A DNA stretch of 24,715 bases, taken from a virus. The translations under genes and the position numbers were made by a program. Of this stretch, positions 5,173 to 24,715 are shown one piece after another (positions within the stretch are counted from its first letter, which is position 1; each line of letters starts with the position of its first letter). The notes under the pieces were generated by a model. The model was not told where the DNA came from and ran no database searches. It was given only the letters and a program-made list of their open reading frames with translations. Where the stretch lies: positions 1 to 24,715 of IMG/VR virus record IMGVR_UViG_3300020404_000338; one strand, written 5' to 3'.

Positions 5173-5189
5173 ATTGTAGTCTCCTTTGT

Positions 5190-5368: not shown

Positions 5369-5394
5369 CTGTTGCAAAAATACAACAGTTTTTT
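5369..5394 (+). terminator. Candidate intrinsic terminator on the + strand
   Basis: CTGTTG, an 8-base loop, CAACAG, then six T's. Only the + strand reading has the U-run after the stem; on the minus strand the stem is followed by ATTAG. The stem is short (6 bp). There is no rightward gene just upstream, so it would end readthrough from far left or a short unannotated RNA. Confidence 0.45.
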
Positions 5395-5423
5395 AGAACA
5401 AAACAAGAACATTACAGATTTTG

Positions 5424-5448
5424 CGGCCTGATCCTAGGAACCAGGCCG
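5424..5448. other. GC-rich stem-loop in the leader of the leftward operon
   Basis: CGGCCTG pairs with CAGGCCG around an 11-base loop that itself contains the palindrome CCTAGG. It stands out in an AT-rich gap. On the minus strand it starts about 37 bases after the predicted transcript start. Neither strand has a U-run after it, so it is not an intrinsic terminator; RNA protection or leader regulation are possible roles. Confidence 0.55.
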
Positions 5449-5490
5449 TGCGTCCTGACTTTATCCGTCTCCATCAAAAGTCATAAGTCT

Positions 5491-5519
5491 ATTATATCAT
5501 TTTTTTACGTTTCCGTCAA
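5491..5519 (-). promoter_or_regulatory. Sigma70 promoter of the leftward operon
   Basis: Read on the minus strand: TTGACG (5519-5514), a 17-base spacer, TATAAT (5496-5491). This is 11 of 12 consensus positions with ideal spacing. The predicted start is near 5484, giving a leader of about 310 bases before the first gene. It is the only strong promoter seen for the genes from 5172 down to tRNA-Pro and marks them as early-type. Confidence 0.8.
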
Positions 5520-5524
5520 GCACT

Positions 5525-5532
5525 TATAAATA
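5525..5532 (+). promoter_or_regulatory. T4-type late promoter TATAAATA
   Basis: An exact late box followed by GTT. It lies 29 bases before the ATG at 5562, with AAAGGA at 5548-5553 between them. It is back-to-back with the leftward sigma70 promoter, five bases from its -35 box. Confidence 0.8.
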
Positions 5533-5561
5533 GTTATTATTAATTTTAAAGGAAAAAAACT

Positions 5562-6086
5562 ATGTACGAGTATAAATGCAAAATTATAAAGATAGTTGAC
5601 GGTGATACCGTTGATATTGACCTAGATTTGGGTTTCGGTGTTTGGCTTCGAGATGAAAGAGTCCGAATTATGGGCATTGACACTCCAGAAAGTAGAACAT
5701 CCGATAAAGTTGAAAAAGTTTTTGGCTTAGCAGCAAAAGATAGATTAAATTCGTTATTAGGTAGTGAGGCAATCTTATTATCACAGGTAACAAAGGGTGG
5801 AGAGAATATGAAAGGTAAATTTGGTCGTATTCTTGGTGATTTTAAAACAATTAATGGTGATACTGTTACTGAAATATTAATGAAGGAAGGCCATGCTGTT
5901 GCTTATAATGGTGGAAGTAAAGATGATGTTATAAAACAACATTTATTAAATAGACAGAGATTGGTTAATGAAGGAAAAGTTCCTGCACCAGAAGGTATAA
6001 GTGTTGAAACAAAACAAGAAGAACCAATTGTTGTTAAAGAAACTAAATCTACACCGAAGAAAAAAAAGAGTAAAAAGAAAAAGTAA
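5562..6086 (+). CDS. Staphylococcal-nuclease-like (thermonuclease) protein
   Basis: This 174-residue protein matches the SNase fold, an OB-fold Ca2+-dependent nuclease family. It starts I-V-D-G-D-T-V-D (11-18, with the metal-binding Asp at 15). It continues R-V-R-I-M-G-I-D-T-P-E (33-43), in which Arg35, Asp40, Thr41 and Glu43 correspond to the catalytic set of the S. aureus enzyme. The second catalytic Arg is probably Arg89 in K-F-G-R. There is no signal peptide, so it acts in the cell or is packaged. The last 15 residues are almost all Lys, a likely nucleic-acid-binding tail. Late expression is expected from the promoter at 5525. Whether it degrades host DNA, repairs DNA or serves in the particle cannot be told from sequence. 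Confidence 0.85.
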   Translation: MYEYKCKIIKIVDGDTVDIDLDLGFGVWLRDERVRIMGIDTPESRTSDKVEKVFGLAAKDRLNSLLGSEAILLSQVTKGGENMKGKFGRILGDFKTINGDTVTEILMKEGHAVAYNGGSKDDVIKQHLLNRQRLVNEGKVPAPEGISVETKQEEPIVVKETKSTPKKKKSKKKK

Positions 6087-6103
6087 TATAGGAGGGCACT
6101 CCA

Positions 6104-6238
6104 ATGAATTATTTTAAAAAAATAGTTGATTGGGTTATTCAATCATATGAACCCGAAAAACCTAAATTAAAACCAAAAGTAATGTTTACAAAAAATGGTA
6201 AAACATACTATTTAAGAAAACGTAAAAAGAAAAGATGA
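6104..6238 (+). CDS. Very small basic protein of unknown function
   Basis: Forty-four residues with a strong TAGGAGGG ribosome site eight bases before the ATG, which makes it believable despite its size. The N-terminus M-N-Y-F-K-K-I-V-D-W-V-I-Q is a short amphipathic helix; the end is strongly basic (L-R-K-R-K-K-K-R). Its TGA overlaps the ATG of the next gene by four bases (ATGA), so the two are coupled. No family is recognised. Confidence 0.6.
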   Translation: MNYFKKIVDWVIQSYEPEKPKLKPKVMFTKNGKTYYLRKRKKKR

Positions 6239-6441
6239 TAGGTGAATATACTGTTATGATAGGTGATAAACTTTTTCATTATACAAATGTGGATGATATT
6301 CCTGAAAAGTTTGATCATCTTATAAAATTTTTACCAGCATTACCATCTGAGCCACACACTCAGGCGGACCATGATTATATAGATACATTTACTGATAAGA
6401 TGAGAGAGATACAAAAAAGGGGAATAAAGGATAATGAATAA
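6235..6441 (+). CDS. Small conserved phage protein next to PAAR gene
   Basis: Sixty-eight residues. The N-terminal half is beta-like (Y-T-V-M-I-G-D-K-L-F-H-Y) followed by D-D-I-P-E-K-F-D-H-L-I and a P-x-x-P-S-E-P-H-T segment; the C-terminal half is a charged helix. I have an impression of similar short proteins near baseplate genes of T4-like marine phages. It overlaps both neighbours (ATGA with the gene before, TAATG with PAAR), so it is probably made in step with the spike tip. The function is unknown. Confidence 0.6.
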   Translation: MIGEYTVMIGDKLFHYTNVDDIPEKFDHLIKFLPALPSEPHTQADHDYIDTFTDKMREIQKRGIKDNE

Positions 6442-6740
6442 TGGGTAAGTCCGTAGTTAGATTTAGAGATCCTGATGTAGCTCATTGTAGTGGTATGACT
6501 AGATTGGGTAAGTCACCAAATGTATTTGCTAATGGTAAAGGAATTTCAAGGCAAGGTGATGTTAATACTACTCATCTTTTACCACCCAATTTACCACCTT
6601 GCGGTTCTCATTCAGCTGGTATTACTACAGGATCAACAACAGTTTTTACAAATAGCAAAGGGACAGGCAGAACCGGCGATGCTATATCAGGTTGCACTTC
6701 TTGTGGACAGGGATCAACAAATGTATTTGCAGGCGGATAA
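6441..6740 (+). CDS. PAAR-repeat spike tip protein (T4 gp5.4-like)
   Basis: This 99-residue Gly/Thr/Ser-rich protein has the PAAR pattern: A-H-C-S-G, F-A-N-G-K-G-I-S-R-Q-G-D, C-G-S-H-S-A-G-I-T-T-G-S, F-T-N-S-K-G-T-G-R-T-G-D and a final C-G-Q-G-S-T-N-V-F-A-G-G. T4 gp5.4 is 97 residues. PAAR proteins sharpen and cap the trimeric beta-helix spike of phage tails and type VI secretion; conserved His and Cys bind a metal. The expected partner is the spike whose end is at 1-327. The ATG overlaps the stop of the gene before it, and a late promoter for gp25 begins six bases after its stop. Confidence 0.85.
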   Translation: MGKSVVRFRDPDVAHCSGMTRLGKSPNVFANGKGISRQGDVNTTHLLPPNLPPCGSHSAGITTGSTTVFTNSKGTGRTGDAISGCTSCGQGSTNVFAGG

Positions 6741-6746
6741 TTGCAG

Positions 6747-6754
6747 TATAAATA
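6747..6754 (+). promoter_or_regulatory. T4-type late promoter TATAAATA
   Basis: An exact box followed by GTAGTA, 17 bases before the ATG of gp25 at 6772, with the ribosome site AGGAGAG at 6760-6766. It drives the gp25-gp6-gp7-like unit. Confidence 0.8.
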
Positions 6755-6771
6755 GTAGTAGGAGAGATTAA

Positions 6772-7200
6772 ATGGCAAGTTATGACGCTGGTACATTAAC
6801 GAATAAAAGTAAAAGAAATGGGCAAATCTATAACGATTTAAATTTAGATTTTCAACAAAATTCTGCTACTAAAGATATTCAAAAAATTACAGATGTTGAG
6901 TCTGTAAAAAGAAGTGTACGAAACCTAATTAACTTAAATCATTATGAGAAGCCTTTTCACCCAGAAATTGGGTCTAATTTAAGAGGTATGTTATTTGAAA
7001 ATATAACTCCTCAAATGAGTCATGCGATTAGTAAAGAAATTGATTTATTAATTAGAAATTTTGAACCAAGAGCAAGATTAGTACAGATATCTACTATACC
7101 ACAATTTGATAGAAATGCATATGCAGCTACAATATCTTTTTATGTGCAAAATTCTCCAGATAGAATAGTAGTAGAATCATTTTTAGAAAGATTAAGATAA
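6772..7200 (+). CDS. 25: Baseplate wedge subunit gp25
   Basis: This 142-residue protein (T4 gp25 is 132) has the GPW/gp25 pattern: P-F-H-P-E-I-G-S-N-L-R (61-71), L-F-E-N-I (74-78), then the E-P-R motif at 98-100 followed by A-R-L, typical of gp25 and its type VI counterpart TssE. In T4 it joins the inner baseplate to the sheath and takes part in triggering contraction. Soluble; strong ribosome site; own late promoter. One base separates it from gp6. Confidence 0.9.
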   Translation: MASYDAGTLTNKSKRNGQIYNDLNLDFQQNSATKDIQKITDVESVKRSVRNLINLNHYEKPFHPEIGSNLRGMLFENITPQMSHAISKEIDLLIRNFEPRARLVQISTIPQFDRNAYAATISFYVQNSPDRIVVESFLERLR

Positions 7201-7201
7201 T

Positions 7202-9058
7202 ATGGCAACTAAATTAGAAATATCACAATTAGACTTTGATGGAATCAAAGACAATCTAAAAACTTTCCTATCACAACAAGACGAATTTACTGATTATGAT
7301 TTCGAAGGTTCTGGAATGAATATTCTATTAGACGTTCTTGCTTACAATACACATTATCTTGGATACAATGCTAATATGTTGGCAAATGAAATGTATCTTG
7401 ACAGTGCTGATCAAAGATCAAGTGTTGTGTCATTGGCAAAACAAGTTGGATATACTCCAAAAAGTGCTTCATCTTCTCTTGCAACAATTAATGTTCTTAT
7501 GAATAATGCCACTGGCTCTAGTGTTACAATGACAAGAGGAACAAAATTTACAACCACGGTTGATGGAACAAATTATTCTTTTGTAAATAATGCTGATGTA
7601 AGTATTTCTCCTCAAGATGGTGTTTATCAATTTTCTAATTTAGAAATTTATGAAGGAACATATTTGAATTACAAATATACAGCAAACACCTCTGATAAAG
7701 ATCAAAGATTTATTATACCAAATGATTTTGTTGATACAACAACTCTTACTGTTAAGGTACAAGAATCTTCTTCCGACTCCACAACTAACACATATAAATT
7801 AGCACAAGGTATCACAGGATTAGATTCTACATCTAAAGTTTATTTCTTACAAGAAGTTGAGAATGGAAGATTTGAAGTTTATTTTGGCGATGGTGTTCTA
7901 GGTGAAGCAATCGCTGACGGTAATATTGTAATACTAGATTATATCACTTGTAATTTAGATGAACCGAATGGTGCTACCACATTTACATTATCAGGAACAA
8001 TTGATGGTTTTTCAGATGTAACAATTACAACAGTTGATGCTGCTGCTAACGGTAGTGGTCCTGAAACAATTAAATCAATTAAGTATAATGCACCTAGAGA
8101 TTATACAGCACAAGATCGTGCCGTGACAGCAGATGATTATAAAGTTCTTGTTAAGGGTTTATATGCTAATGCTCAATCAGTTCAAGTATATGGTGGTGAA
8201 GACGCTGCCACTCCTGACTATGGTAAAGTTTATATATCAATTAAAGCAAAATCTGGTTCTAACCTAACAGAGATAACTAAAGTAAATTTAGTTCAAAGTC
8301 TTAAATCATTTGCTGTTGCTTCAGTAACACCTGTGATCATTGATCCTGAAACTACTTTCATAACTCTAACTACAACTTTTAAATATGACTCTAGTGCCAC
8401 TACTAAAGACATATCAACAATAGAAACAGATGTAACTAATGCTATAATAGCTTATAATACATCCACACTAGAGGATTTTACAGGTATGTTTAGATATTCG
8501 GAAGTGTTAAAAAGAATAGATGACGCTGATACTTCTATACTATCAAATATCACTAAAGTTAAAATGTATAAATTTATAACACCAACATTGAATTCAGGAT
8601 TAAAATACACTCTATCATTTAACAATGCACTTTATAATCCACACTCTGGCCATGCTTCTGATATGGGTGGTATAGTTTCATCAACAGGATTTAAGATTAA
8701 TAACGATAATTCAACTAATGAACATTTTTTAGATGATGATGGTAAAGGTAATATTAGAGTTTATTATTTAAATGGTACTACAAGAATATATACAAGTACA
8801 ACTTTTGGTACTATTGATTACACAACTGGTGAAATAGTTTTGACCTCTGCTCATATAACAAGTATCTCAAATGTCGATGGTGCAGCTAGTACTCGAATAA
8901 GAGTATTTACAACACCAAGTTCAAATGATATTATTCCTGTAAGAAATCAAGTTTTAGAAATTGATACTGCTAATTCAACTATAACTGGTTCAATAGATGA
9001 AATCGAAAGTGGTAGTTCACAAGCAGGAACATCTTACACAACAACTAGTAGTTATTAG
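7202..9058 (+). CDS. 6: Baseplate wedge subunit gp6
   Basis: This 618-residue protein (T4 gp6 is 660) is a baseplate-J-type wedge protein. The N-terminus has the typical I-S-Q-L-D-F-D-G-I-K-D-N-L-K (7-20), then D-Y-D-F-E-G-S-G-M-N-I-L-L-D-V-L-A-Y-N-T (33-52) and the N-E-M-Y-L-D-S-A segment (63-70). The middle holds the J-like domain with Y-F-G-D-G-V-L-G (about 228-235) and R-A-V-T-A-D-D-Y. The C-terminal 140 residues carry H-S-G-H and I-V-S-S-T-G-F, then D-D-D-G-K-G-N-I-R-V-Y-Y-L, as in T4-like gp6. It builds the ring of six wedges around the hub. Spacing to gp25 is one base and to the next gene 10 bases. Confidence 0.9.
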   Translation: MATKLEISQLDFDGIKDNLKTFLSQQDEFTDYDFEGSGMNILLDVLAYNTHYLGYNANMLANEMYLDSADQRSSVVSLAKQVGYTPKSASSSLATINVLMNNATGSSVTMTRGTKFTTTVDGTNYSFVNNADVSISPQDGVYQFSNLEIYEGTYLNYKYTANTSDKDQRFIIPNDFVDTTTLTVKVQESSSDSTTNTYKLAQGITGLDSTSKVYFLQEVENGRFEVYFGDGVLGEAIADGNIVILDYITCNLDEPNGATTFTLSGTIDGFSDVTITTVDAAANGSGPETIKSIKYNAPRDYTAQDRAVTADDYKVLVKGLYANAQSVQVYGGEDAATPDYGKVYISIKAKSGSNLTEITKVNLVQSLKSFAVASVTPVIIDPETTFITLTTTFKYDSSATTKDISTIETDVTNAIIAYNTSTLEDFTGMFRYSEVLKRIDDADTSILSNITKVKMYKFITPTLNSGLKYTLSFNNALYNPHSGHASDMGGIVSSTGFKINNDNSTNEHFLDDDGKGNIRVYYLNGTTRIYTSTTFGTIDYTTGEIVLTSAHITSISNVDGAASTRIRVFTTPSSNDIIPVRNQVLEIDTANSTITGSIDEIESGSSQAGTSYTTTSSY

Positions 9059-9068
9059 GTGTTGATTG

Positions 9069-12000
9069 ATGGACAAGAAAAAAACAAATAAAAAAAAACT
9101 ATCCACACTCATTAAGCAACAAGTACCTGAGTTTGTATTAACAGATCATCCTAAGTTTACAGAATTTCTTACATCTTATTTCCTATTCATGGAATCTGCT
9201 GAATTGAATCTAGATCAATTCACAGACATAGATCAAATACTTTTAGAAACAGTAGGTACTACGGACAGTTTTGTTTTATTAAATCAAACAACTAAAAATG
9301 GTTTAGACGCAGGTAATAAACTTGTAAATGAAGAAAATACTTTTGGCAGTTCTTTTCAGAAAGGCGAAATAATTACAGGTGCAACATCTGGTGCTACATC
9401 AACTATTTTAGCAGAGGACACGATAGCCAATGATAGATTATTCATATCAGCAAACAATGGTTGGATAACAGGAGAAACTGTTACAGGTTCTATTTCAGGT
9501 GCAACTGCTAAAGTTCGTAAGTATCGTGCAAATCCTGTAGAGAATATTCAACAACTTTTAAACTATTCTGATCCTGATCATACTATTAGTGACTTTTTAA
9601 ATCAAATGAAAGAGGAATTTCTTAATACAATTCCTAGAGATACAGATGAAGGTGTAGATACAAGAAAATTAATCAAGAATATTAAATCTCTATACAGAGC
9701 AAAAGGTACTGCAAAGGCACACAAGGCTTTCTTTAGAATATTATTTGATGAGTCAGCAGAGGTTTACACTCCATCAGATGATATGTTGAGAGTATCAGGT
9801 GGTTCTTGGAATGTTCAAACATTTATTCGTTGCACTCAAACATCACTACAATCCGTTAATGATCCTATCTTTCTAACAGGACAAACAATTACACAGGCAA
9901 ATAATCCTTCATCAACGATAATAAACAAGGCAACAGCGATTGTAGAAAACGTTTTAAAATTTCAAGAAGGTAGCACACAAATTATTGAGATCATACTTAA
10001 TACAGAAACGACAACAGGTACTTTTATTAACGGTGCTGAGATTACTGGAATAAGTAATGCAGATCCAGATGTAACAATAGGAGCAACTGTATCAGAATGT
10101 TTATCGACTGCCGTGATCACAAATAATGGTAACACGTTGACAGTTGGTGATGAGGCAACTTTAACTGGTGGTGGTGGATCTGGTGCTAGAATTCAAGTAT
10201 TGGATATATCTGGTGCAGGTGTATCAGAGGTTATTGTAGATTCTGTTGGGGAAAATTTTGAAGAAGGAGATACACTCACATTTAGTTCAGGTACTGCTGA
10301 AGCAAAAGTTTCTGTTGTTAATGGTGGATTTGCACCTGAGTCAGGAAGTATAGATTCTCATATCGAATTAGAAGTAGGAACAGTTACAGGCGGCGGATCA
10401 GGAGATTTATTATTTGAGGATGCGATTGATAATAATGAAGGTGGAAAATTTTTAGATGAATCTACAATCATGCGTGATCTTCAAGTTAGAACATCACTAG
10501 AAAATGAGGTTGGTTCTATATTGCAGGAAGAATATATTGATGATTCCGCTGATAGAATATATGTAGTAAATCAAGAAGATGAAACAGATTTACCTTATAA
10601 CATGGAGGCCGATGATCATATCGTACTAGAAGATTTAGTGGCAGGGGAAGGAATCCCAGGAAATAAAATTGTTCAACAAAATGCAACAGGCGTAGGAGAT
10701 ATTACCGATGTAAGAATGATCGCAAGTGGTTCTGGATATACAACTTTACCTACGGCAACAATTGATGGTGTTAGACATTTAGGATTAGAAAATGCCACAT
10801 CTTCCGAAACATCCGATTTTAGTCGTATCGAGTTTGAAGATGGTGGAACGGTATTAAATGAATCAGATTTTGCTACTTTAAATGTTCAAGGTGCAACCGT
10901 AATACCTTTCGGTGAGGATATAGGTAGAGCGACTTCACTAACTATCATTGAACATGGTATTAATTTTACATCAGCACCTACTTTAGATTTTCCTCGTTAC
11001 GCTGTTCTTAAAACAGTTTCAGGAGCAATATCTGCTAATGAAACATTTACATCAAATGTAAGTGGTGCAACAGGAACAGTAATTGATTTTACAGCACCTC
11101 TTCTAAAATATACAGCAACAACAAGTGAATTAGCTGAAACAGATACGGTCACATTTTCTGGTAACACAACAGCTGTTGTTGCAAAAACTGATCCATTAAC
11201 TGGTTCTGCGACCATAGGAACATTAGTTACAACCTCTGGAAAATATATAAATCAAGATGGACACCTTTCAGAGGGTTCTAAAAAAATTCAAGATAGTTTA
11301 TACTATCAAGATTTTTCTTATGTAATTAAAGTTGCACAATCAATTAACAAGTGGAGAGATTCTATTAAACGTGCAGTTCACCCAAGTGGATTTTACGTTA
11401 CTGGAGAGGTAAACATTCAAACAAGATTAGCGGGTGGTGTTAAACAACCAGTTGGTGCTACATTATCACAAGGATTATTCTCTGGTACTGCTGATAGTCC
11501 AATCTACATGAGATTAAATACATTGTTCAATACTATCTTTAGTAGAAGAACAGGAGTTGGATTTAAATTTATGAGTAATGCTGGTCAACTAGATGGTAAA
11601 ACTTTAGTATCATCAGCAGTTGCAAGAACAGGTAAACCAGTAGAAGTTCACAATGATTACAGAGATACGAGTACAAATACTGAAAAAGAATTAAATTTAC
11701 ATCCTGAAACTACACTAGATTTAGAACGTAGAAGTAGAACAAATTTTTACACAAATACGTCATATACAGCAAGAAGCACTGCTGTTAAGAATGGATTTGC
11801 ATATGCAGGTCCTAGATTAAAGACTTTGAATACCTTTGCTCTCTCAGCATTTGCAGCTAATAATGCGATAACACTAGAAGGTGGCACAGGTGCAGGTGAG
11901 ATCATACTAGAAAACGAACATGGCGTGCTACAACATCCACAGTCAGATTCATTCAGCACAAGACTTAATTCTTGGACAAATTTAAGATTTACTGGTACTT

Positions 12001-13642: not shown

Positions 13643-16600
13643 ATGCCAAGTAAAACTGATTTTAATGTTAGTCCTTATTTTGATGACTATACAGAGGATA
13701 AAAAATTTCATAGGGTCATGTATCGACCATCCTTTGCTGTTCAAGCAAGAGAATTAACAACACAACAAAGTATATTACAAAATCAAATAGAATCATTTGG
13801 TGACCATATGTTCAAACATGGCGCCATGGTTATTCCTGGTCAAATAAATCTTGATAAAAACTATTTTGCTGTTAAATTAACTTCTTTTACTGGAACTCTA
13901 TCACTATACAAAGACAATAAGATAACAGGTGCGACATCTGGTGTTGTTGCTGATGTTGTAGGATTTGTTGCAACTGATGGTACTGATCCTGATACATTAT
14001 TTGTAAAATATAGAAATTCTGGTACTGATAATTCTTCACAAAAATTTGTTGATGGAGAAACAATTACAAGTGGACAAGAAGCTGCTTCGACAGCGGTTGT
14101 TTCAACTTGTATTACTGGTTCTGCCGTACATATTGATAGTGGTACATATTACATTAATGGATTTTTTGTTAATGTTGATAAACAAACTTTAGTATTAGAA
14201 AAATATTCAAATATTCCAAGTTATCGTGTTGGATTGACAATCGTAGAAAATTTTATAACATCAACAGATGATACGAGTATATTAGATAATGCAACTGGTT
14301 CATCAAACGCAAATGCCACTGGTGCTCATAGATTTAAAATAGATTTGATTTTAACAAAATTAGAATTAACTTCAACTGCTGACGCAAGTTTTGTTGAGTT
14401 AATGAGAGTTGAGGAAGGTAATCTTAAAAATAGAATTGATACCACAAAATACAGTCACTTTGAAGATACTTTAGCAAGAAGAACATTTGACGAGTCTGGT
14501 GATTACACGGTTGAAAATTTTGATCTGGACATAAGAGAACATCTAGCTGTCGGAGATAATCGTGGTATATTTGCTGCTGGATCAACATCAACAGATGGTA
14601 ATTTAGCTGATGAATCAAAATTAGCATTTGGTCTTGGTCAAGGTAAGGCATACGTTAAAGGATATGAGATTGGAAAAATAGGAACAACTCATGTTGACGT
14701 AGATAAGGCAAGAGATTTCGATACTGATAGTGGATCAGTAACTAGATTTAATATTGGTTCTTTTGTAAATGTTCAAGATGTTCATGGCACACCTGATATA
14801 GGATTTGTTTCTGGAGAATCAGAAGCATTCAAAACAGTTAGACTAGTAGATGAAGCACATGGAACGAGAGGTACTGTTTTTGGTACTGCTCTTGCATTTG
14901 TTTATGATATTGGTCGTGCAAAGACAAGAGCTTTTGAACATAACACTGGTTCTCCCTCTACAAACTTCTTATCATCATCAAGTGTAACCGATACCGTTTT
15001 TAAACATTATCTTTTTGATATTGAAATGTTTAGTCATGTAAATATAAGTGGAAAAATGTCAGGTGCTTTAACAGCTGGTGATACATTAACTGGAGGAACT
15101 TCAGGTGCGACTGGTATAGTCGAAAGTATTTCAACTGAAAATTCAGCAGTTATCACAGGTGCAACTTCGGCTAATCCTGTTGTTGTAACTTGTTCGGGTG
15201 GACACTCATTTACTGAAGGTCAACAAATTATAATCGCTGGTGTTTCTGGAATAACAGACATCAATACGACTCATACTGTAAAAGATCCAACTGCGACAAC
15301 ATTTAAATTATTTACTGCACAAACGGCCGCAACTACTACCCCAGCTGCTGTTGATGGTTCTGGATATAGTAGTTTCTCTGGTTCAGGTGGTACAGCAAAA
15401 CATACAACAATCATATTAAATAATGTTCAAGGTGAATTTATTGGTGGTGAAACAGTAAGCGCACCGACAGGTTCAAGATCAGGAACAATTCAGTTTGACT
15501 CTCTTGGATGCAAAGGATTTGAACTAAAAGAATTTAATCAAACAAAAGGTATCTCAATGGCAGGTAGTCCACCATATACTGCTAATGTTTCATTGGGATC
15601 AACTTTTTCTGAACATAAGACACTAACAGGAAATATTTCTGTCGCTAATAGTGCAACCGCTATTACTGGAAGCGGAACACGATTTACATCCGAATTAAAA
15701 ATCGGAGACAGCATTACATTTACAGATAATGCCAACACAACAGTTACAAGAGTTGTAGAGAGTATTAACTCAGACACATCATTAGAATTAACTGCTGCTG
15801 TGGGTGGTTCAGATGTTACGACATCAGCTCCTTTTGTTCGAAGAAGAGGACAACTTCAAGACGCTGATAAAAATGTTGCTATATCAAGACTGCCGTATGA
15901 TGTTGTTAAAACATTACTGACAACTGATAACGATAGTGTTAGTGATACAAGTTTTAAAATTAGAAGACAGTTTGTTGCTACCTTATCAAGTTCTGGTACT
16001 GCAACGATAACTGCTGGTACGAATGAAACATTTGCAGATTTCTCAGAAAATGATTATTCGATTTCTATTATGACGACAGGCTCTGGCGGTACTGGTGCTG
16101 TTGGAGATGTTATTTCACTTTCAACAGCTGATGATTTTGAAAAAACTGGAACACCAGAAGGTAAAACGTTAGATATAGATTTAGGTAGTGGATATAATGG
16201 TCATAAAATTAAAATTCTTGCTACAATAAATGCTTCTGTTGTTGGTTCAAAAACAAAATCTGATACTTCAGGAACTCAAACTGTTGATACTGAAGCACTT
16301 GCAACTGCAACGACAATTAGTCTTGGTAGAGCAGATGTTCACTCAATAGAGAGTATATTCATGGCTGCTGACTTTAGTACGGCCGCTACTTCAGAGGATA
16401 CAGATGTCACAGATAATTTTGATTTAGATTCTGGTCAAAGAGATAACTTCTATGATATAGGACGTATTGTAAGAAAAGCTGGTACTCTTGCACCGACTGG
16501 TAGATTACTAATTAATTTTAAATTTTTTGAGCATGGTGCTGGAAACTTCTTTAGTGTAGATAGTTATTCAGGTTTTGACTATGGATCAATCCCTTCCTAT

Positions 16601-19600
16601 ACTTCAGATGTGACTGGTGAAAAATTTGAATTGAGAGATGTATTAGATTTTAGACCAAGAGTTGATGACGCTTCAACAATTGATTCTGGTTCTCAAGATA
16701 GATCATTTGATGGCGTTGGTTCTTCGGTAATAGAAACTATGAAAATCAATACAGATGTCACAGCCGATTTAGAGTTTTTTCTTGCTAAAAATGCTAGGGT
16801 TTACCTAACAGCTTCAGGATTGTTTAGAGTTGTTGAGGGCGCTTCATCACTTGATCCTCAATTTCCAGAAGAATTAAAAGATAGTATTCATTTATATGAT
16901 GTAGAAATACCACCATATACATTCAACACAAGTGATATTAAAATTAAAGCTGTAGATAATAGAAGATTTACAATGAGAGATATTGGTAGAATTCAAAAAC
17001 GTGTAGAGAATATAGAATACTACACTCAATTATCTCTATTAGAATCAGACGCAAAAGGAATGCAGATTCAAGACGCTGATGGATTTGATAGATTTAAAAA
17101 TGGTATTATAACTGACAACTTTACGGGCCATGGTGTTGGAGAGGTATCAAGTAGTGATTACAAAAATTCTATGGATATTCCAAATGGTCAATTACGACCT
17201 GCATTTCATCAAAACAATATTAATTTAATCGAATCTGATTCTGCATTGAAAAATTCATCTTCAATGACAGACGCTATTCGATCAACAAACGGTTATCAAA
17301 GAACTGGTGAGTTAATTACTTTACCTTACACCGAGGTAGAATACCTAGATCAACCTTTTGCAAGTACAACAGTTAATTTAAATGAATATGATACAATCGA
17401 TTTTATAGGACAAATAACATTATCTCCAGACAATGATGAGTGGATGGCAACTGAAACTAGACCAGAATTAAGAGTTGATCTTCCAAACGTATATGACACA
17501 CTAACAAATCTTGCTTCTCAAGGAGTGCTAGATTTGAATCTTGGTACAGTTTGGAATAACTGGAACGATACATGGACAGGTGTCAGATCAGATACAGGAA
17601 ATACTACCAGCACAAATAGAACATGGTGGCAAGGTAATTCTTTATTAAGAAATACTGTAACCACTGTAAGTCAATCTGAGAGAGTAGATAGAACAAGAAC
17701 AGGTATAAGAACAGCATTAGTACCTGGTGGTGTTCAAACTAAGAGTTTTGGTAATAGAGTAGTATCAGTTGGGTTTGCTCCTTTCATTAGAAAAAAAGAT
17801 ATTGAATTTAGTGCTGTTGGTATGAAACCATTAACAAGAGTATTTCCATTCTTCGATGGTGTAGATATATCAGCTTATGTGACACCAACAGGAAGTAATG
17901 CTGGTGCAGCACTGACAACAGATGCTAACGGATCGGTTTCAGGTCTATTTGCTTTACCTGCACCTATTGATGGTTTTAATATAAGACTTGCTCCAGGAAC
18001 TTCACTACCACCAAAATGGAGAACAGGAACAAGAGCATTTAGATTAACTTCAAGTTCAGAGAATAGTCTTGTTGGAGATGTATTTACCTCTGCTGAAACA
18101 GACTACACAGCAAAAGGAATGATACAACAAGTTCAAGGTACGGTAGTTTCTACTAGAGAACCTAGAATACAAAGAACAGGAGTATCAGAATCAACTTCAA
18201 TTAATGTTGCTGTCGGTAACAGAGTAGTTAGTAATTCAACGTCTGTTATTGGTCGAAGAAATCCACCAAGACAAAATGATAGAGATCCAGGAGATAGGAG
18301 AGATCCACTCGCTCAAGCATTCTATGTTGATCAAGAAGATGGTATGTTTATAACAAGTATTGACGTATTCTTTTCAGCAAAAGATACTGCCATGCCTGTA
18401 ACCATGCAGATAAGACCTATGGTAAACGGATATCCAAGTAGTAATACAGTTTTACCTTTCGGTGAAAAAACTTTACAAGCTTCAGAAATTAGCACATCAA
18501 CAGATGGCACAACAGCGACAAGATTTACTTTTCCTAGTCCTGTGTTCGTACAGAATGCTACTGAATATGCCTTTGTTCAATTATGTAGCACACCTAATTA
18601 TACTCAATATGTTGCTGAAATGGGACAGACTACAATAGACGGAGGAAGATTAATTTCTACTCAACCATATCTATCTAGTTTATTCAAATCTCAAAACGGA
18701 AGTACTTGGACTGCTGAACAGAATCAAACTCTTAAATTCAAAGTCAATCGTGCTGCATTTACAGAAAATACACAAGGACACGTTTACCTTGTTAATGATG
18801 ATATACCTACACAAATATTAGGAAAAAATCCTATTGAAACAAATGCAACTGCAGGATCAGGTTCAACATTTGGTAGTAATCCTGCCATCATAAAAATTAA
18901 TGCGAGAAATCATGGGCTACATAGTAGTTCTCACAATGTTACCATTGCAGGTGTTCCTGCAGGAACATATAATGGAATCGCTTCTACAAACATCAATGGA
19001 ACATATACAACAATTGGTAACATCACATTAGATTCATTTACTGTAACTGCTCAAAATTCAGATGTCGCAACAGCAACAGGATCAATTGGTGCAAGTGCTG
19101 TGACTATAAATCCAAACATTCAGTATGATATCATACAACCGATTGTCGGTTTAGTTCAACCTGCAGGATCAACAATTACTGCTAACCTAAGAACAGCTAA
19201 TGGTAGAACACTTGAACAATCTGAAAATGAATTTTCTTTAACGTCCGCTTCTAAGCAAGTTCCTGTTGAGATCAATAGTGATCATTACTTGAACAATCCT
19301 GGTGCAGTTTATTCTACACTCAATGAAACAAATGAAATGTCAGGTAGTAAATCACTATCACTTAAATTATCATTTAGTACACCGACTGAACAAGGACACG
19401 TTTCACCTGTTATAGATACAACTAGATTGTCTGCTCACTTAATACAGAATAGAATTAATAATCCTATATCAGGAACAACTCCAGATTTTGTTCCCGAAAC
19501 AACTAACACTGGTAGTAGTACAGAAGCTAAATATCAAACTAGACCTATCATATTAGAAAATGAATCTACAGCACTTGATATAAGAATTACAGCAAATGTT

Positions 19601-19876
19601 GCTTCGACAGCTGCTGTAAAAATGTATTATCGTCTATCAAATGCTGATGATGCTAGAAATATGAGTAATCTTGCCTGGAGAGGTTTCAATGATGATGGTT
19701 CTACCGATACGGCTGTTGAACCATCAGAAAATAGATTCCAATTCAAAGAACACAAATTTAGCGCTAGCGGTTTGACAGCATTTACAGCCTTTCAATTAAA
19801 AATCACAATGACTGGAACAAGTTCTTGTTATCCGCCAAAAATAAAAGATTTAAGAGGAATTGCTTTGGCAGTTTAA
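13643..19876 (+). CDS. Giant DUF4815 virion structural protein (baseplate/fibre)
   Basis: A single 2077-residue frame. The N-terminus is typical of DUF4815 tail proteins: P-Y-F-D-D-Y (11-16), F-H-R-V-M-Y-R-P-S-F-A-V-Q-A-R-E-L-T-T-Q-Q-S-I-L (22-45), G-D-H-M-F-K-H-G-A (53-61). Many beta modules follow, including several T-G-x-T-S-G-A-T repeats and a T-C-S-G-G-H-S-F-T-E-G-Q segment (about 515-526). Late regions include D-P-L-A-Q-A-F-Y-V-D-Q-E-D-G-M-F (about 1555-1570) and S-L-F-K-S-Q-N-G-S-T-W-T-A-E-Q-N (about 1677-1692), which I recall from the largest structural proteins of T4-like cyanophages. It probably forms a large part of the outer baseplate or a fibre scaffold. An AAAGGA ribosome site precedes the ATG; no late box lies between gp8 and this gene. 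Confidence 0.8.
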   Translation: MPSKTDFNVSPYFDDYTEDKKFHRVMYRPSFAVQARELTTQQSILQNQIESFGDHMFKHGAMVIPGQINLDKNYFAVKLTSFTGTLSLYKDNKITGATSGVVADVVGFVATDGTDPDTLFVKYRNSGTDNSSQKFVDGETITSGQEAASTAVVSTCITGSAVHIDSGTYYINGFFVNVDKQTLVLEKYSNIPSYRVGLTIVENFITSTDDTSILDNATGSSNANATGAHRFKIDLILTKLELTSTADASFVELMRVEEGNLKNRIDTTKYSHFEDTLARRTFDESGDYTVENFDLDIREHLAVGDNRGIFAAGSTSTDGNLADESKLAFGLGQGKAYVKGYEIGKIGTTHVDVDKARDFDTDSGSVTRFNIGSFVNVQDVHGTPDIGFVSGESEAFKTVRLVDEAHGTRGTVFGTALAFVYDIGRAKTRAFEHNTGSPSTNFLSSSSVTDTVFKHYLFDIEMFSHVNISGKMSGALTAGDTLTGGTSGATGIVESISTENSAVITGATSANPVVVTCSGGHSFTEGQQIIIAGVSGITDINTTHTVKDPTATTFKLFTAQTAATTTPAAVDGSGYSSFSGSGGTAKHTTIILNNVQGEFIGGETVSAPTGSRSGTIQFDSLGCKGFELKEFNQTKGISMAGSPPYTANVSLGSTFSEHKTLTGNISVANSATAITGSGTRFTSELKIGDSITFTDNANTTVTRVVESINSDTSLELTAAVGGSDVTTSAPFVRRRGQLQDADKNVAISRLPYDVVKTLLTTDNDSVSDTSFKIRRQFVATLSSSGTATITAGTNETFADFSENDYSISIMTTGSGGTGAVGDVISLSTADDFEKTGTPEGKTLDIDLGSGYNGHKIKILATINASVVGSKTKSDTSGTQTVDTEALATATTISLGRADVHSIESIFMAADFSTAATSEDTDVTDNFDLDSGQRDNFYDIGRIVRKAGTLAPTGRLLINFKFFEHGAGNFFSVDSYSGFDYGSIPSYTSDVTGEKFELRDVLDFRPRVDDASTIDSGSQDRSFDGVGSSVIETMKINTDVTADLEFFLAKNARVYLTASGLFRVVEGASSLDPQFPEELKDSIHLYDVEIPPYTFNTSDIKIKAVDNRRFTMRDIGRIQKRVENIEYYTQLSLLESDAKGMQIQDADGFDRFKNGIITDNFTGHGVGEVSSSDYKNSMDIPNGQLRPAFHQNNINLIESDSALKNSSSMTDAIRSTNGYQRTGELITLPYTEVEYLDQPFASTTVNLNEYDTIDFIGQITLSPDNDEWMATETRPELRVDLPNVYDTLTNLASQGVLDLNLGTVWNNWNDTWTGVRSDTGNTTSTNRTWWQGNSLLRNTVTTVSQSERVDRTRTGIRTALVPGGVQTKSFGNRVVSVGFAPFIRKKDIEFSAVGMKPLTRVFPFFDGVDISAYVTPTGSNAGAALTTDANGSVSGLFALPAPIDGFNIRLAPGTSLPPKWRTGTRAFRLTSSSENSLVGDVFTSAETDYTAKGMIQQVQGTVVSTREPRIQRTGVSESTSINVAVGNRVVSNSTSVIGRRNPPRQNDRDPGDRRDPLAQAFYVDQEDGMFITSIDVFFSAKDTAMPVTMQIRPMVNGYPSSNTVLPFGEKTLQASEISTSTDGTTATRFTFPSPVFVQNATEYAFVQLCSTPNYTQYVAEMGQTTIDGGRLISTQPYLSSLFKSQNGSTWTAEQNQTLKFKVNRAAFTENTQGHVYLVNDDIPTQILGKNPIETNATAGSGSTFGSNPAIIKINARNHGLHSSSHNVTIAGVPAGTYNGIASTNINGTYTTIGNITLDSFTVTAQNSDVATATGSIGASAVTINPNIQYDIIQPIVGLVQPAGSTITANLRTANGRTLEQSENEFSLTSASKQVPVEINSDHYLNNPGAVYSTLNETNEMSGSKSLSLKLSFSTPTEQGHVSPVIDTTRLSAHLIQNRINNPISGTTPDFVPETTNTGSSTEAKYQTRPIILENESTALDIRITANVASTAAVKMYYRLSNADDARNMSNLAWRGFNDDGSTDTAVEPSENRFQFKEHKFSASGLTAFTAFQLKITMTGTSSCYPPKIKDLRGIALAV

Positions 19877-19880: not shown

Positions 19881-20105
19881 ATGTCAGTTATAAAAGTAAA
19901 AGGTCATACGCATTTAGTTAGAGATTTAAAGTCACAAGCAATTATCAATACGGATTCAGATGCCTATGCTCGTTACATGGCGAGAAAGGCGAAACAATCT
20001 AAAAAAGATGATGAGATGAGATCAGTTGTTAGAGAAGTTAATAGTCTAAAAACTGAGATGTTTGAAATAAAAAAATTACTTAAAGAGATAAAAGATGGCA
20101 GATAG
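19881..20105 (+). CDS. Small protein with C-terminal coiled coil
   Basis: I take ATG 19881 (74 residues), four bases after the DUF4815 stop; a longer frame would run back into that gene. The N-terminus is V-I-K-V-K-G-H-T-H-L-V-R-D, followed by I-I-N-T-D-S-D-A-Y-A-R-Y. From about residue 44 there is a clear heptad helix (V-V-R-E-V-N-S-L-K-T-E-M-F-E-I-K-K-L-L-K). I recall short proteins of this layout (H-x-x-L-V-R-D, N-T-D-x-x-A-Y, then a coiled coil) among structural genes of T4-like marine phages. The end overlaps the first fibre gene by 11 bases. The ribosome site is weak, so expression likely depends on the gene upstream. Confidence 0.65.
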   Translation: MSVIKVKGHTHLVRDLKSQAIINTDSDAYARYMARKAKQSKKDDEMRSVVREVNSLKTEMFEIKKLLKEIKDGR

Positions 20106-20126
20106 ATCAGTAGCATCAACAGATAC
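20095..20126 (+). repeat. 32-base identity shared by the two fibre gene starts (copy 1)
   Basis: The first 32 bases of this gene are identical to 21373-21404. The shared block begins exactly at the ATG and includes the 11 bases that also encode the end of the coiled-coil protein. It suggests a recent gene duplication or selection to keep an N-terminal docking peptide. Confidence 0.85.
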
Positions 20127-21360
20127 GTTTAATGATTTTAGACGAGAAGTAAATGGCACAGCGAGAGATATAGGTGATATTTCAAACTTGTTAAGTGCAA
20201 GTGGATTTATCGCTTCATCAACAGATTTAGCTGAAGCTATCGTTGCGATCAACACGGAACTTCCTGAGATCACAACAGACGCATTTGTATTTCCTGGTCG
20301 TACTATGGTATTTGAAGGTGCAACAGATGACGATTTTGAAACAACCATAGAATTTCTTGAACCAACTGGCGATAGAACACATACTTTACCAGACGCTGAT
20401 GGAACGATAGTGCTAGTGGATCCTGTAGCAGTAACATTAACAAATAAATCTCTAGATTCATCAAACGTTTTTATGGATACTACCCTAAGCACTGCCGTTT
20501 CAGGTTCTGCCATATTAGATGAAGACGATATGTCCTCAAACTCAGCAATCAAGGCTGCTACACAACAAAGTATTAAAAAATATGTAGATGATAGTATTGA
20601 TGCTGATATGGATTTAGTTTTTGCAACTGATAGTGGTGGTGGACAGATCACAATGGATTCTGAAACATTAACACTCACTGGTGGCACTGGTATTGATACT
20701 GCTGGATCAGGTAATGCGATCACTTATAGTATTGATAATACAGTCGCTACTCTTGCAGGAACTCAAACATTCACAAATAAAACTTTTACAACTCCGACTT
20801 TAACAAGTCCTGTATTCAATACATCATTGAGTGGTAGCGCTTTTCTTGATGAGGATGATATGTCGAGTAATAGTGCAACTAAGATGGCTTCTCAGCAAAG
20901 TATCAAGACATATATTGATAACATCATAGCGACAGAGGATTTAGACTTTGCACCAGATAGTGGCACAGCACAAAACATACTTTTAGCAAGTGAAACAATG
21001 TCCATCTCTGGTGGTACAGCAGTAGGAACAACTGCTTCGGGTAGTACTATCAATGTGGCACTTGACTCAACTGTTGCTACAAAAACAGGAACAGAAACAT
21101 TTACAAATAAAACTTTTACAAGTCCGTTAATAAATGCTTTGACTTTTGTATCAGGAACCTCAGCGACAGGAATAAGTATTGGTGCTAACGGAATTATATT
21201 TGAAGGTGCGACCGCTGACGCACATGAAACAACTTTGACAGCAGTGGATCCGACACAAGACAATGTAATAACAATACCAGACACAACAATGACATTATTA
21301 ACAACAGCAACACACGCCAGTAAATCAAATCATATTGGCAAAGTGATTGCATTAGGATAG
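20095..21360 (+). CDS. Tail-fibre-like structural protein, copy 1 of a tandem pair
   Basis: This 421-residue Thr/Ser/Asp-rich beta protein begins M-A-D-R-S-V-A-S-T-D-T, identical to the start of the next gene. It opens with a F-E-G-A-T-D-D-D-F-E-T-T...D-R-T-H-T-L-P-D-A-D-G-T module (about 73-102) and ends with a related one (about 364-395). Between them are two copies of a 110-residue module starting at residues 136 and 246: S-G-S-A-x-L-D-E-D-D-M-S-S-N-S-A, Q-Q-S-I-K, then (first copy) L-T-L-T-G-G-T-G-I-D-T and T-Q-T-F-T-N-K-T. Such modules are common in fibre and appendage proteins of marine phages. It starts inside the coiled-coil gene and has no late box of its own. Binding target unknown. 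Confidence 0.7.
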   Translation: MADRSVASTDTFNDFRREVNGTARDIGDISNLLSASGFIASSTDLAEAIVAINTELPEITTDAFVFPGRTMVFEGATDDDFETTIEFLEPTGDRTHTLPDADGTIVLVDPVAVTLTNKSLDSSNVFMDTTLSTAVSGSAILDEDDMSSNSAIKAATQQSIKKYVDDSIDADMDLVFATDSGGGQITMDSETLTLTGGTGIDTAGSGNAITYSIDNTVATLAGTQTFTNKTFTTPTLTSPVFNTSLSGSAFLDEDDMSSNSATKMASQQSIKTYIDNIIATEDLDFAPDSGTAQNILLASETMSISGGTAVGTTASGSTINVALDSTVATKTGTETFTNKTFTSPLINALTFVSGTSATGISIGANGIIFEGATADAHETTLTAVDPTQDNVITIPDTTMTLLTTATHASKSNHIGKVIALG

Positions 21361-21372: not shown

Positions 21373-21404
21373 ATGGCAGATAGATCAGTAGCATCAACAG
21401 ATAC
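21373..21404 (+). repeat. 32-base identity shared by the two fibre gene starts (copy 2)
   Basis: Identical to 20095-20126, beginning at the ATG. The sequence upstream of the two copies differs: coding sequence before copy 1, a late promoter box before copy 2. Confidence 0.85.
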
Positions 21405-22623
21405 TTTAGAAACCTTTAGAACAACATATAATTCTACGGCAGCAGATGTCGGAGATATATCGGCTGTTACAGGTGCGAGTGGTGTCATTGCGTCTGCAAC
21501 AGATATCGTTGAGGCAGTCACATTGATGAATACCGAGGTTACTGCGATCAAGGCGGGTACTGCTGTGTTTGAAACTAAAATAACTTTTGAAGGTAATACC
21601 GTTGATGATAACGAAACAGTTTTAGCGATCACTGATCCTACACAAGATAGAACAATCTTTTTTCCAGACTCAGATGGTGAAGTTGTTACTACAACTGCCG
21701 TTCAAAACTTAGATAATAAAACATTCCAGCAATGTACAATCACTAACGGTGTTTTCAATATTCAATTTCAAGGAGATGCATTTTTAGATGAAGATAACAT
21801 GGCGAGTGATAGTGATACAAAATTAGCCTCTCAACAATCTATCAAGGCATATGTTGACGCTCAGATCACTGCTCAAGATTTAGATTTTCAAGCAGATTCA
21901 GGTGGTGCGTTATCAATTGATTTAGACTCTGAAACATTAACACTCACTGGTGGTACTGGTATCGATACGACAGGTTCAGGCAATACAGTTACGTTTGCAA
22001 TTGACAACACTGTAGCCACTCTCGCAGGCACTCAAACATTTACAAATAAAACTTTAACAACTCCGACTCTAACAAGTCCTGTTTTAAACACTTCTATTTC
22101 TGGTAGTGCTTTTCTTGATGAGGATGATATGGCGAGTAATAGTGCGACTAAAGTTGCATCCCAACAATCGATCAAAGCATATGTTGATAGTAGTATCACA
22201 GCCGAAGATTTAGATATTACAACAGATAGTGGATCAATCTCAATTGATTTAGATAGTGAAACATTAACATTCACTGGTGGTACTGGTATTGATACTACGG
22301 GTTCAGGTAACGCATTAACTATCGCAATCGACTCAACTGTTGTGACAAAAACAGGCACTCAAACATTAACGAATAAGACTTTAACAAGTCCTACTCTTAA
22401 CTCACCTACTATCACAAGTTTGACAGCAACAGCATTAAATTTAACAGATTCAAGTATTGTGTTTGAGGGTGCGACTGCTGATGCTTTTGAAACTACACTT
22501 ACAGTAGTGGATCCAACAGCAGATAGAACGATCACAATACCAAACGAAACAGGAACACTAATAACATCGGCAAGTGCAGCTACTAACGCTTTTTCAATAT
22601 CAATTGCAGCTGCATTAGGATAA
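21373..22623 (+). CDS. Tail-fibre-like structural protein, copy 2 of a tandem pair
   Basis: This 416-residue paralogue of the gene before has the same M-A-D-R-S-V-A-S-T-D-T start and architecture: an opening T-F-E-G-N-T...D-R-T-I-F-F-P-D-S-D-G module (about 73-102), two 110-residue modules starting at residues 133 and 243 (A-F-L-D-E-D-N/D-M-A-S, Q-Q-S-I-K-A-Y-V-D, L-D-S-E-T-L-T), and a closing V-F-E-G-A-T-A-D-A-F-E-T-T...D-R-T-I-T-I-P-N module (about 362-391). It ends in A-A-A-L-G, much like copy 1 (V-I-A-L-G). It differs from copy 1 in having a late promoter box directly in front, and could be made separately or in different amounts. The ligand is unknown. Confidence 0.7.
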   Translation: MADRSVASTDTLETFRTTYNSTAADVGDISAVTGASGVIASATDIVEAVTLMNTEVTAIKAGTAVFETKITFEGNTVDDNETVLAITDPTQDRTIFFPDSDGEVVTTTAVQNLDNKTFQQCTITNGVFNIQFQGDAFLDEDNMASDSDTKLASQQSIKAYVDAQITAQDLDFQADSGGALSIDLDSETLTLTGGTGIDTTGSGNTVTFAIDNTVATLAGTQTFTNKTLTTPTLTSPVLNTSISGSAFLDEDDMASNSATKVASQQSIKAYVDSSITAEDLDITTDSGSISIDLDSETLTFTGGTGIDTTGSGNALTIAIDSTVVTKTGTQTLTNKTLTSPTLNSPTITSLTATALNLTDSSIVFEGATADAFETTLTVVDPTADRTITIPNETGTLITSASAATNAFSISIAAALG

Positions 22624-22657: not shown

Positions 22658-24715
22658 ATGGCATTATCAAAAATATCAGGAACAACAGGTATAACAGACG
22701 GAACAATTACCTCTGCTAAACTAGCAGATTTTACAGCGGCTGTTGATCTTAATGGTGTTGAATTAATTTTAGACGCCGATCAAGATACTTCGATCAGCGC
22801 TGATACAGATGATCAGATAGATATTAAAATTGCAAACGCAGATCATCTAAAAATATTAAGTTCTTCTGGTGATACAGTTCTTAAACCGATGGTTGACGCC
22901 AAAGATATTATCTTTCAACAGTTCGATGGAAATAAAATATTTTGCATAGATGATGGCAATTTCGTAAGTGTCGGTGGTAATTCAGCTGCACCAGGCGAGA
23001 TAAGAATTTACGAAGATACCGATAACGGTACTCATTATACAGGTTTCAAGGCAGGTAATAATACTGCTTCAGTGGCATATGTATTACCAACTGCTGACGG
23101 TAGTGCAGGAACACAATTAACAACTGACGGATCAGGAACTTTATCTTGGTCTTCAAATTTAACAATCACAAACGACACTAACAATCGTATCACAACTGCA
23201 ACAGGATCTTCTGGTCTAAACGCAGAGGCAAGTTTAACTTTTGATGGAACAACTTTAGCTCTAACAGGAAATCAAACTGTATCTGGTAACATAGATGTAG
23301 ATGGTACAAGTAATTTAGATAACGTTGATATTGATGGTAATTTAGATGTAAATGGTGGCACAATAAAATTAGATGGTGCTTTTCCAACAGGAACATCAAA
23401 CACAGCATTAGGAGCTGCAGCTTTAGATGATGGTAGTTTAAGTGGTGGTTGTAACGTTGCAATTGGTTCTGGCGCTTTAAGCGAAAATGAAGGTGGTGCA
23501 AGTAACATAGCAGTAGGTGTTAGTTCTTTAAATGCTAACACATCAGGCGATCAAAACGTAGCAGTCGGTTGTGCTGCTTTACTAGTTAATACAACAGGTG
23601 ATAACAATGTTGCTGTCGGTTATCTGTCATTAGACGCTAATACTACAGGCGGTTCAAATGTAGCAATGGGTAGAGGTTCACTTGGTGCTAATACAACAGC
23701 ATCAAATAATGTAGCAATTGGAGATTTATCTATGGTTGCTAACACAGAGGGTCATAGTAATACAGCAATAGGAAAAGGTAGTTTAGGTGCTAATACTACT
23801 GGAACAAGCAACACAGCAGTTGGGTGTGATGCTTTAGTAAATAATACAACTGCTGGAGCAAATACGGCAGTAGGTAGAAATTCTTTAAGAGATAATACAA
23901 CAGGTTCTGATAATACAGCAGTAGGAGAAAGTTCATTAAGAGAAAATGAAACAGGTTGTTGTAATGCAGTTTTAGGTGAAAATGCAATGACACTTAATAC
24001 ATCAGGTTGTTACAATACATCAATTGGTAGTATGTCACTACACAATAACACAACAGCATCTAATAACACAGGAGTTGGATTTTGTTCTTTATATTCAAAT
24101 ACAACAGGTGCTAACAATGTTGCAATCGGAGATAGTGCTTTAAAAACTTCTTCAACAAATACACAAAACACAGCAGTTGGTACTAATGCACTTTGCCTTA
24201 CAACAGCAAATGAAAACACAGCTGTTGGTTTTGAATCTCTTAAAACTAATGCAGGTGGTTTTTATTTAACAGCAGTTGGTAAAGATTCTGGTTTATCTAA
24301 TACTTCTGGTGCTTACGGAACATATGTAGGTAGATATGCTGCTAGAGCTAACACAACAGGTTTTGGTAATGCAGTATTAGGTGCAAATGCTTTTTGTGCT
24401 AATACAACAGGTGGTTCAAATGTTGCTGTTGGTTTATGTGCTTTACAAGATAACACTACAGCAGATGGTAACACAGCAGTAGGTGGAAATAGTTTAGAAC
24501 AAAATACAACAGGAGCAAGTAATACAGCAGTTGGTCGTTGTGCTTTGAATGTTAATACAACAGGATACAATCTTGTTGGAATAGGTGCAGATTCTTTAAA
24601 ATCTAACACTACAGGAAGTCAAAGTGTAGCCATTGGGTATAAAGCCTCATCTTCAAATACAGAGGGTTTTAAAAACATTGCTATTGGTCAATGTGCTTTG
24701 TTAAGCAATACTACA
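22658..24715 (+). CDS. Repeat-rich tail-fibre/adhesin protein (3' partial)
   Basis: The frame is open to the window end: 686 residues with no stop. Residues 1-247 form an N-terminal region with I-T-D-G-T-I-T-S-A-K-L, Y-V-L-P-T-A-D-G-S-A-G-T-Q-L-T-T-D and A-S-L-T-F-D-G-T-T-L-A-L-T-G, common in phage fibre proteins. From residue 248 on there are 26 copies of a 17-residue repeat, N-T-A-V-G-x-x-A-L-x-x-N-T-T-G-x-x, the last cut by the window. The A-V-G / A-I-G core resembles the head repeats of trimeric autotransporter adhesins, so a trimeric beta-solenoid shaft is likely. A C-terminal chaperone (such as peptidase S74) may follow but is not visible. Late promoter and ribosome site are clear. It probably acts in receptor binding. 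Confidence 0.75.
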   Translation, partial: MALSKISGTTGITDGTITSAKLADFTAAVDLNGVELILDADQDTSISADTDDQIDIKIANADHLKILSSSGDTVLKPMVDAKDIIFQQFDGNKIFCIDDGNFVSVGGNSAAPGEIRIYEDTDNGTHYTGFKAGNNTASVAYVLPTADGSAGTQLTTDGSGTLSWSSNLTITNDTNNRITTATGSSGLNAEASLTFDGTTLALTGNQTVSGNIDVDGTSNLDNVDIDGNLDVNGGTIKLDGAFPTGTSNTALGAAALDDGSLSGGCNVAIGSGALSENEGGASNIAVGVSSLNANTSGDQNVAVGCAALLVNTTGDNNVAVGYLSLDANTTGGSNVAMGRGSLGANTTASNNVAIGDLSMVANTEGHSNTAIGKGSLGANTTGTSNTAVGCDALVNNTTAGANTAVGRNSLRDNTTGSDNTAVGESSLRENETGCCNAVLGENAMTLNTSGCYNTSIGSMSLHNNTTASNNTGVGFCSLYSNTTGANNVAIGDSALKTSSTNTQNTAVGTNALCLTTANENTAVGFESLKTNAGGFYLTAVGKDSGLSNTSGAYGTYVGRYAARANTTGFGNAVLGANAFCANTTGGSNVAVGLCALQDNTTADGNTAVGGNSLEQNTTGASNTAVGRCALNVNTTGYNLVGIGADSLKSNTTGSQSVAIGYKASSSNTEGFKNIAIGQCALLSNTT
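23399..24715 (+). repeat. At least 26 tandem 51-base (17-residue) coding repeats
   Basis: From 23399 the sequence repeats every 51 bases, except one 54-base and one 48-base unit, always in frame. The best-kept parts are A-V/I-G at unit positions 3-5, Leu at 9 and N-T-T-G at 12-15. Units are diverged in sequence (several lack N-T-T-G), so they are old or under diversifying change, not a fresh expansion. Twelve Cys residues are scattered through them. The array continues past the window. Confidence 0.9.

Follow-up and report, generated by a model that had tools for sequence, protein, structure and literature searches.

Coupling of cysteine-bearing repeat fibres with a predicted GT9-fold transferase in aquatic phages, and its proposed substrate half in a pelagimyophage-like virus

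The presence of Cys in repeat-bearing phage proteins is coupled with a nearby transferase gene, and this coupling is shown on two different repeats as well as within one phage lineage. A gene for a Cys-rich tail fibre of this kind lies at the end of the window, i.e. the whole 24,715-base stretch analysed here, which is one complete IMG/VR contig. Sequence comparisons lead us to regard it as probable that the fibre is S-glycosylated on its Cys by a dedicated transferase. On balance, with somewhat less assurance, we also favour the wider proposal that aquatic phages carry exchangeable modules, made up of a Cys-dotted fibre and a GT9-like S-glycosyltransferase and sometimes a sulfotransferase, which would cover tail fibres in S-linked glycans, from tens up to about a hundred of them, and would have arisen on at least two different repeat scaffolds.

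The window encodes T4-like baseplate genes on the + strand, including those for gp25, a wedge protein and gp8. Its gp6 is 58% identical to that of Pelagibacter phage Mosig and 55% to that of HTVC008M, and the gene order from the baseplate to the VrlC-like gene is the order found in both phages. Judged by gene content, the virus is pelagimyophage-like, and its fibre region corresponds to the host-recognition cluster that comes after the VrlC gene in pelagimyophages (PMC7029224). Elsewhere the window carries an auxiliary metabolic gene for S-adenosylmethionine decarboxylase (1371-1760; PF02675, E 1.6e-17), a tRNA-Pro (TGG) gene on the - strand (2724-2800) and, ahead of gp25, a PAAR-like protein scoring slightly below the cut-off (6441-6740). 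The features central to this study are:

13643..19876, + strand: VrlC-like large structural protein of 2,077 aa (PHROG 358; synteny with Mosig and HTVC008M)
20095..21360, + strand: fibre gene A (tail-fibre PHROG 892)
21373..22623, + strand: fibre gene B, a paralogue of A (PHROG comparison)
22658..24715, + strand: Cys-rich repeat tail-fibre gene, 686 aa in the window, 3' end past the contig (ORF; PHROG 4636)
22658..23398, + strand: N-terminal part of this fibre, aa 1-247, probable anchor (DNA comparison with other contigs)
23399..24715, + strand: array of 26 units of 17 aa, with 12 Cys at x positions (unit parsing; beta-roll model)
23560..24112, + strand: mosaic block in the array (DNA 92% identical to the L085 contig's array, about 65% across the rest of that array)

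Fibre genes A and B are tandem paralogues with the common start MADRSVASTDT, and gene B contains a 327-base repeat in 1.9 copies.

The Cys-rich fibre ORF reaches the contig end before a stop codon and matches the tail spike family PHROG 4636 with E 5.5e-84. Its N-terminal part shows 81% DNA identity across the first 492 bases to contig L005, whose matching ORF contains no array, and the search of other contigs found no close relative of this part joined to an NTAVG array. From aa 248 the protein consists, for 439 residues up to the contig end, of units with the consensus N-[TV]-A-[VI]-G-x-x-[AS]-L-x-x-N-T-T-G-x-x. A regular expression returned 25 segments, one of which, at 34 residues, comprises two units; this confirms the at least 26 in-frame copies of a 17-residue repeat with twelve Cys that a preliminary description had reported. 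Apart from an 18-mer, a 16-mer and the truncated final unit, all units have 17 residues, and residue autocorrelation peaks at lags 17, 34 and 51 (0.42, 0.40 and 0.37, respectively). The copies are divergent, with TRF giving only 1.9 copies in the array region. The mosaic block is in part about 85% identical to contigs L087 and L090, and the fibre N-termini of L085, L087 and L090 differ; this identity pattern is a probable sign of exchange between arrays. As had been supposed, copy number is variable: phages sharing the neighbouring tail protein at 90% identity or more have between 18 and 44 units.

No Pfam family, including YadA, matches the window fibre at E<=1, and a sequence search of solved structures gave nothing useful for the array. 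A nine-unit AlphaFold model built with 50 relatives is a regular beta-solenoid (pLDDT 76), whose top fold similarity is to an ice-binding protein (Z 15.1), followed by the heads of YadA, BpaC, EibD and AtaA (Z 13.3-14.4). The superposition on the YadA head (1p9h) has Z 14.4 and an rmsd of 2.3 across 127 residues, and that on BpaC (7o23) has Z 14.3; Foldseek by itself is weak for this model (E 0.17). The array is thus predicted to form a YadA-head-like beta-roll, and the model lends support to the likeness to trimeric autotransporter heads that had been drawn from the letters alone. The C-terminal chaperone that had been anticipated was looked for in relatives: a Peptidase_S74 domain ends a complete one (E 4.3e-11), S74-like motifs are present in 58 of 76 complete relatives, and the C-terminal S74 is followed by phage genes. 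NTAVG-type arrays are confirmed in at least 587 instances in viral contigs, and 87 records of cultured phages have an array match.

The 12 array Cys of the window fibre (TGT codons in 11 of them) occupy unit positions 6 (2), 7 (4), 10 (2), 16 (2) and 17 (2); a 13th is at aa 96 in the N-terminal part. All 12 thus fall on six of the 17 unit positions (binomial 3.7e-6), and while these six were picked after the pattern was seen, it holds in independent relatives. Parsing 106 arrays with a 17-state periodic profile revealed a nearly bimodal Cys content, with 25 arrays at 2-4.5% and most others below 1%. At the six variable positions Cys accounts for 7.9% of residues in the 25 Cys-rich arrays, compared with 0.1% across 80 arrays of the Cys-poor class. 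Conserved positions in the Cys-rich class are without Cys or nearly so, and the few Cys of the Cys-poor class are mostly at conserved positions. Apart from Cys, with its roughly 80-fold difference, no residue differs by more than about 2-fold between the classes. In an enlarged set including later-fetched loci (105 Cys-rich arrays, 3,604 distinct units), the six positions hold 99.1% of 1,624 Cys. A diversity-generating retroelement was considered as the source of the Cys, but these positions also carry Lys, Glu and Gln, which argues against such an origin. It is highly improbable that the pattern arose by chance or because the composition of AT-rich phages drifted towards TGT codons: the Cys-rich loci are indeed AT-rich (GC 0.31-0.38), but many Cys-poor arrays also come from loci of GC 0.36-0.38, and the Cys occupy only six positions, while structural proteins nearby have little Cys (about 2.5% in the array versus 0-0.24% in the window's remaining large structural proteins).

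The Cys had been suggested to stack into ladders between coils or chains or to bind metal. The pair statistics do not support the ladders: the same position carries Cys in consecutive units 178 times versus 143 by chance, only a slight excess, and no general pair enrichment emerged in 1,416 and then in 3,604 units. All Cys pairs between neighbouring units together stand at chance level (753 versus 768). Near pairs within a unit are depleted, both for positions 7 with 10 (11 versus 38) and for 10 with 11 (8 versus 23). For metal binding no positive evidence was obtained. The pattern looks like single sites with space around them and not like a ladder. Certain neighbouring-unit pairs are enriched, namely 16-16 (40 versus 16) and 11-to-7 (42 versus 22), which favours a metal-binding or disulfide role; set against this are the chance level overall and the avoidance of neighbours within units, and such a role would leave the coupling with the transferase unexplained, so that we hold it to be improbable.

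On listing genes near Cys-rich arrays, a protein of about 293 aa was found behind the fibre gene, annotated in HTVC111P and HTVC112P as a putative glycosyl transferase. Among loci fetched by the fibre and not by the transferase, this gene follows 12 of 12 Cys-rich arrays with sequence downstream and none of the Cys-poor ones, of which 40 have at least 1 kb downstream (0 of 40). A reciprocal search with the transferase recovered 80 loci, 75 of them evaluable (more than 300 bases upstream); an array is directly upstream in 70 of these, with at least 1.5% Cys in 65, and of the remaining five, two have an array 430-475 bases upstream and one reads as an array end plus S74. A second transferase subfamily, about 25% identical, accompanies three further loci (L089, L122 and L131), in which additional genes separate it from the array. 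Weak partial GT9-like matches were seen in L100, L101 and the Cys-poor L126. In some Cys-rich records (L136, L141, L316, L317) no transferase was seen, and their arrays reach or approach the contig end. The Cys classes were set after viewing the first array set; the tests on one lineage and on a second repeat, described below, were done afterwards.

The lineage set was gathered with the L091 tail protein encoded upstream of the fibre; a fibre was counted if it was distinct, had its 3' end intact and was followed by 400 bases or more. Among these phages with related fibre N-termini, whose arrays have 18 to 57 units, the transferase is present with the Cys-rich array in 13 of 13 cases and otherwise in 0 of 12, i.e. 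ten without an array and two with a Cys-poor array (Fisher 1.9e-7). For example, locus L438 has a tail protein 89.5% identical to that of L091 and nearly the same fibre N-terminus, and is without both the Cys-rich array and the transferase. Inside one lineage the transferase thus tracks the Cys-rich fibre, which counts against an explanation by host or lineage. This bears on the possibility that the transferase alters the host surface (e.g. the O-chain, to block superinfection), with Cys-rich fibres being used by phages of the same hosts. Such a role has been published for glycosyltransferases in the pelagimyophage host-recognition cluster (PMC7029224), but the enzyme's position directly behind the fibre gene and its homologues adjoining a different Cys-bearing repeat point the other way, and we judge it unlikely.

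That different repeat is present in L271, a metagenome-assembled contig resembling a phage and the single match when the transferase was sought in bacterial genomes. Here the transferase and a sulfotransferase adjoin proteins with a '...C-TEEYNGTAWS...' repeat, with Cys at one position. Among 70 loci fetched with the TEEYNGTAWS repeat, the Cys-bearing ones have the transferase in 27 cases and not in 12, and the Cys-less ones in 0 of 30 (Fisher 3.6e-10), a set with many near-duplicates that reduces to about 14/9/0/14 distinct loci. Two of the 12 have a transferase elsewhere in the record. The Cys-less loci without a GT9-fold gene (L323, L325, L326, L332, L335-L337, L339-L341 and others) often have a divergent sulfotransferase-like gene (26-29% identity). 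By eye the repeat resembles kelch, but Pfam gave no match, and this assignment was dropped.

The window phage's own transferase was sought by searching other contigs with its VrlC gene and fibre N-terminus, which yielded only the weak partial matches in L100 and L101; 29 VrlC-gene relatives (viral contigs, many ending soon after this gene) had no array or transferase of this kind. Because the contig breaks off within the array and the search turned up the enzyme in none of the close myophage relatives, a transferase past the contig end is only a prediction. A Cys-rich array and a subfamily-2 transferase do occur about 15 kb apart in Marine virus AG-345-L05, which is assigned to Kyanoviridae. 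Its fibre (L272, 4094-11569; 2,491 aa, 75 Cys) has an NTAVG-like array of looser pattern, and oxygenase-like and sulfotransferase-like genes, named by eye, lie downstream.

The transferase matches Pfam GT9 with E 1.2e-4 and 21.9 bits, 0.1 below the cut-off of 22.0, and among solved structures its sequence recovers GT9 weakly (E 0.05). Its structural model (pLDDT 82.6) superimposes on the GT9 protein 3tov with Z 23.3, on WaaC with 20.2 and on TibC with 19.0, and the partner gene is accordingly predicted to encode a GT9 / GT-B heptosyltransferase fold. When aligned with E. coli WaaC and WaaF, all 123 of 123 homologues have Lys in place of Asp13, the catalytic base of WaaC. The D-x-G-L-x-H motif of WaaC and WaaF reads D-S-[CSA]-L-[QN]-H in nearly all homologues, with the Gly changed, and the only conserved Cys are C89 and C215. 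The Lys-for-Asp exchange was considered as a mark of S-transfer and rejected, since P-SSM2, whose array is Cys-poor, has Arg here in a GT9-like gene, and the Asp is therefore lost without Cys too. This distant gene (PSSM2_307; L360, 30283-31395) stands beside genes for a phosphoheptose isomerase, a carbohydrate kinase and a nucleotidyltransferase. The L089 fibre (1-10443; at least 3,480 aa) contains about 199 units and 97 Cys. Between its array and the GT9-fold gene lie a GT2-like and a GT4-like gene and genes for an FkbM methyltransferase and a sulfotransferase, likely a glycan-building set.

Based on these observations we propose that the window gene would supply the substrate in a phage module of two genes. 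Its array would form a long beta-roll fibre, with x positions 6/7, 10/11 and 16/17 taken as surface and about 0.45 Cys per unit distributed among them. The gene that comes next in most relatives, for a dedicated GT9-fold glycosyltransferase, would provide the enzyme that puts sugar on the fibre thiols during fibre synthesis in the reducing cytoplasm. In some phages the sulfotransferase, further glycosyltransferases and methyltransferase may extend this sugar, and the resulting glycan coat may adjust how the fibre binds its receptor, or may serve to shield or stabilise the fibre. We infer the role of Cys as acceptor, and likewise the donor sugar, the surface exposure and the purpose; Cys as acceptor is the simplest reading because on both repeats it is Cys that goes together with the enzyme. 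TibC, which modifies Ser, shows that an enzyme of the heptosyltransferase fold may be dedicated to an adhesin (PMC4358343). This precedent, together with the abundance of Thr, Ser and Asn in the repeat of both Cys classes, lends some weight to the alternative that the phage enzyme glycosylates fibre Ser, Thr or Asn, with the Cys serving another purpose such as recognition or stability. Yet Cys alone changes strongly with the transferase, and the second repeat again pairs the enzyme with Cys at one fixed site, so that we deem this alternative rather unlikely, if less so than the others weighed above.

Few S-glycosylated proteins are known (PMC9877059), and in the part of the literature covered by our search we found no paper on phage S-glycosylation or on this coupling. 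If the proposal is true, abundant aquatic viruses would hold a large natural set of such proteins, phage glycosyltransferases now taken as modifiers of the host surface would gain a function, the GT9 fold would have a new acceptor, and fibre decoration would be seen to come in exchangeable cassettes. The isolated SAR11 phages HTVC111P and HTVC112P allow a direct test.

The window fibre has the same repeat as the widespread NTAVG/S74 phage fibres (PHROG 4636; P-SSM2, HTVC111P/112P, Venkman and CRP phages). The P-SSM2, Venkman and CRP arrays are Cys-poor, unlike that of the window, whereas HTVC111P and HTVC112P, which alone in the cultured-phage collection have the first transferase subfamily, both have Cys-rich arrays. 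With the heads of YadA-like trimeric autotransporters the array shares an N-x-A-x-G repeat and the predicted beta-roll; it differs in belonging to a phage fibre, in its 17-residue unit, in the absence of a Pfam match and in that its relatives carry an S74 chaperone in place of the membrane anchor. The autotransporter heptosyltransferases (TibC/TibA, AIDA-I; PMC4358343) offer a heptosyltransferase-fold enzyme dedicated to an adhesin, as proposed for the phages, and TibC ranks with the best fold matches. TibC itself combines an N-terminal beta-barrel, a four-Cys iron-finger and a catalytic Asp110, and its acceptor is Ser. The 293-aa phage enzyme aligns with TibC from residue 97 onward, has neither barrel nor iron-finger, carries the Lys in place of WaaC Asp13, and is proposed to act on Cys. 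S-glycosyltransferases of glycocins are known as GT2-type enzymes and are not known to be of the GT9 type. As in our proposal, a dedicated enzyme in the glycocin systems (pallidocin, PMC6405829; ThgS, PMC12457901) puts sugar on the Cys of a gene-encoded peptide, but glycocins are small bacteriocins with one or few Cys, whereas the phage array offers tens.
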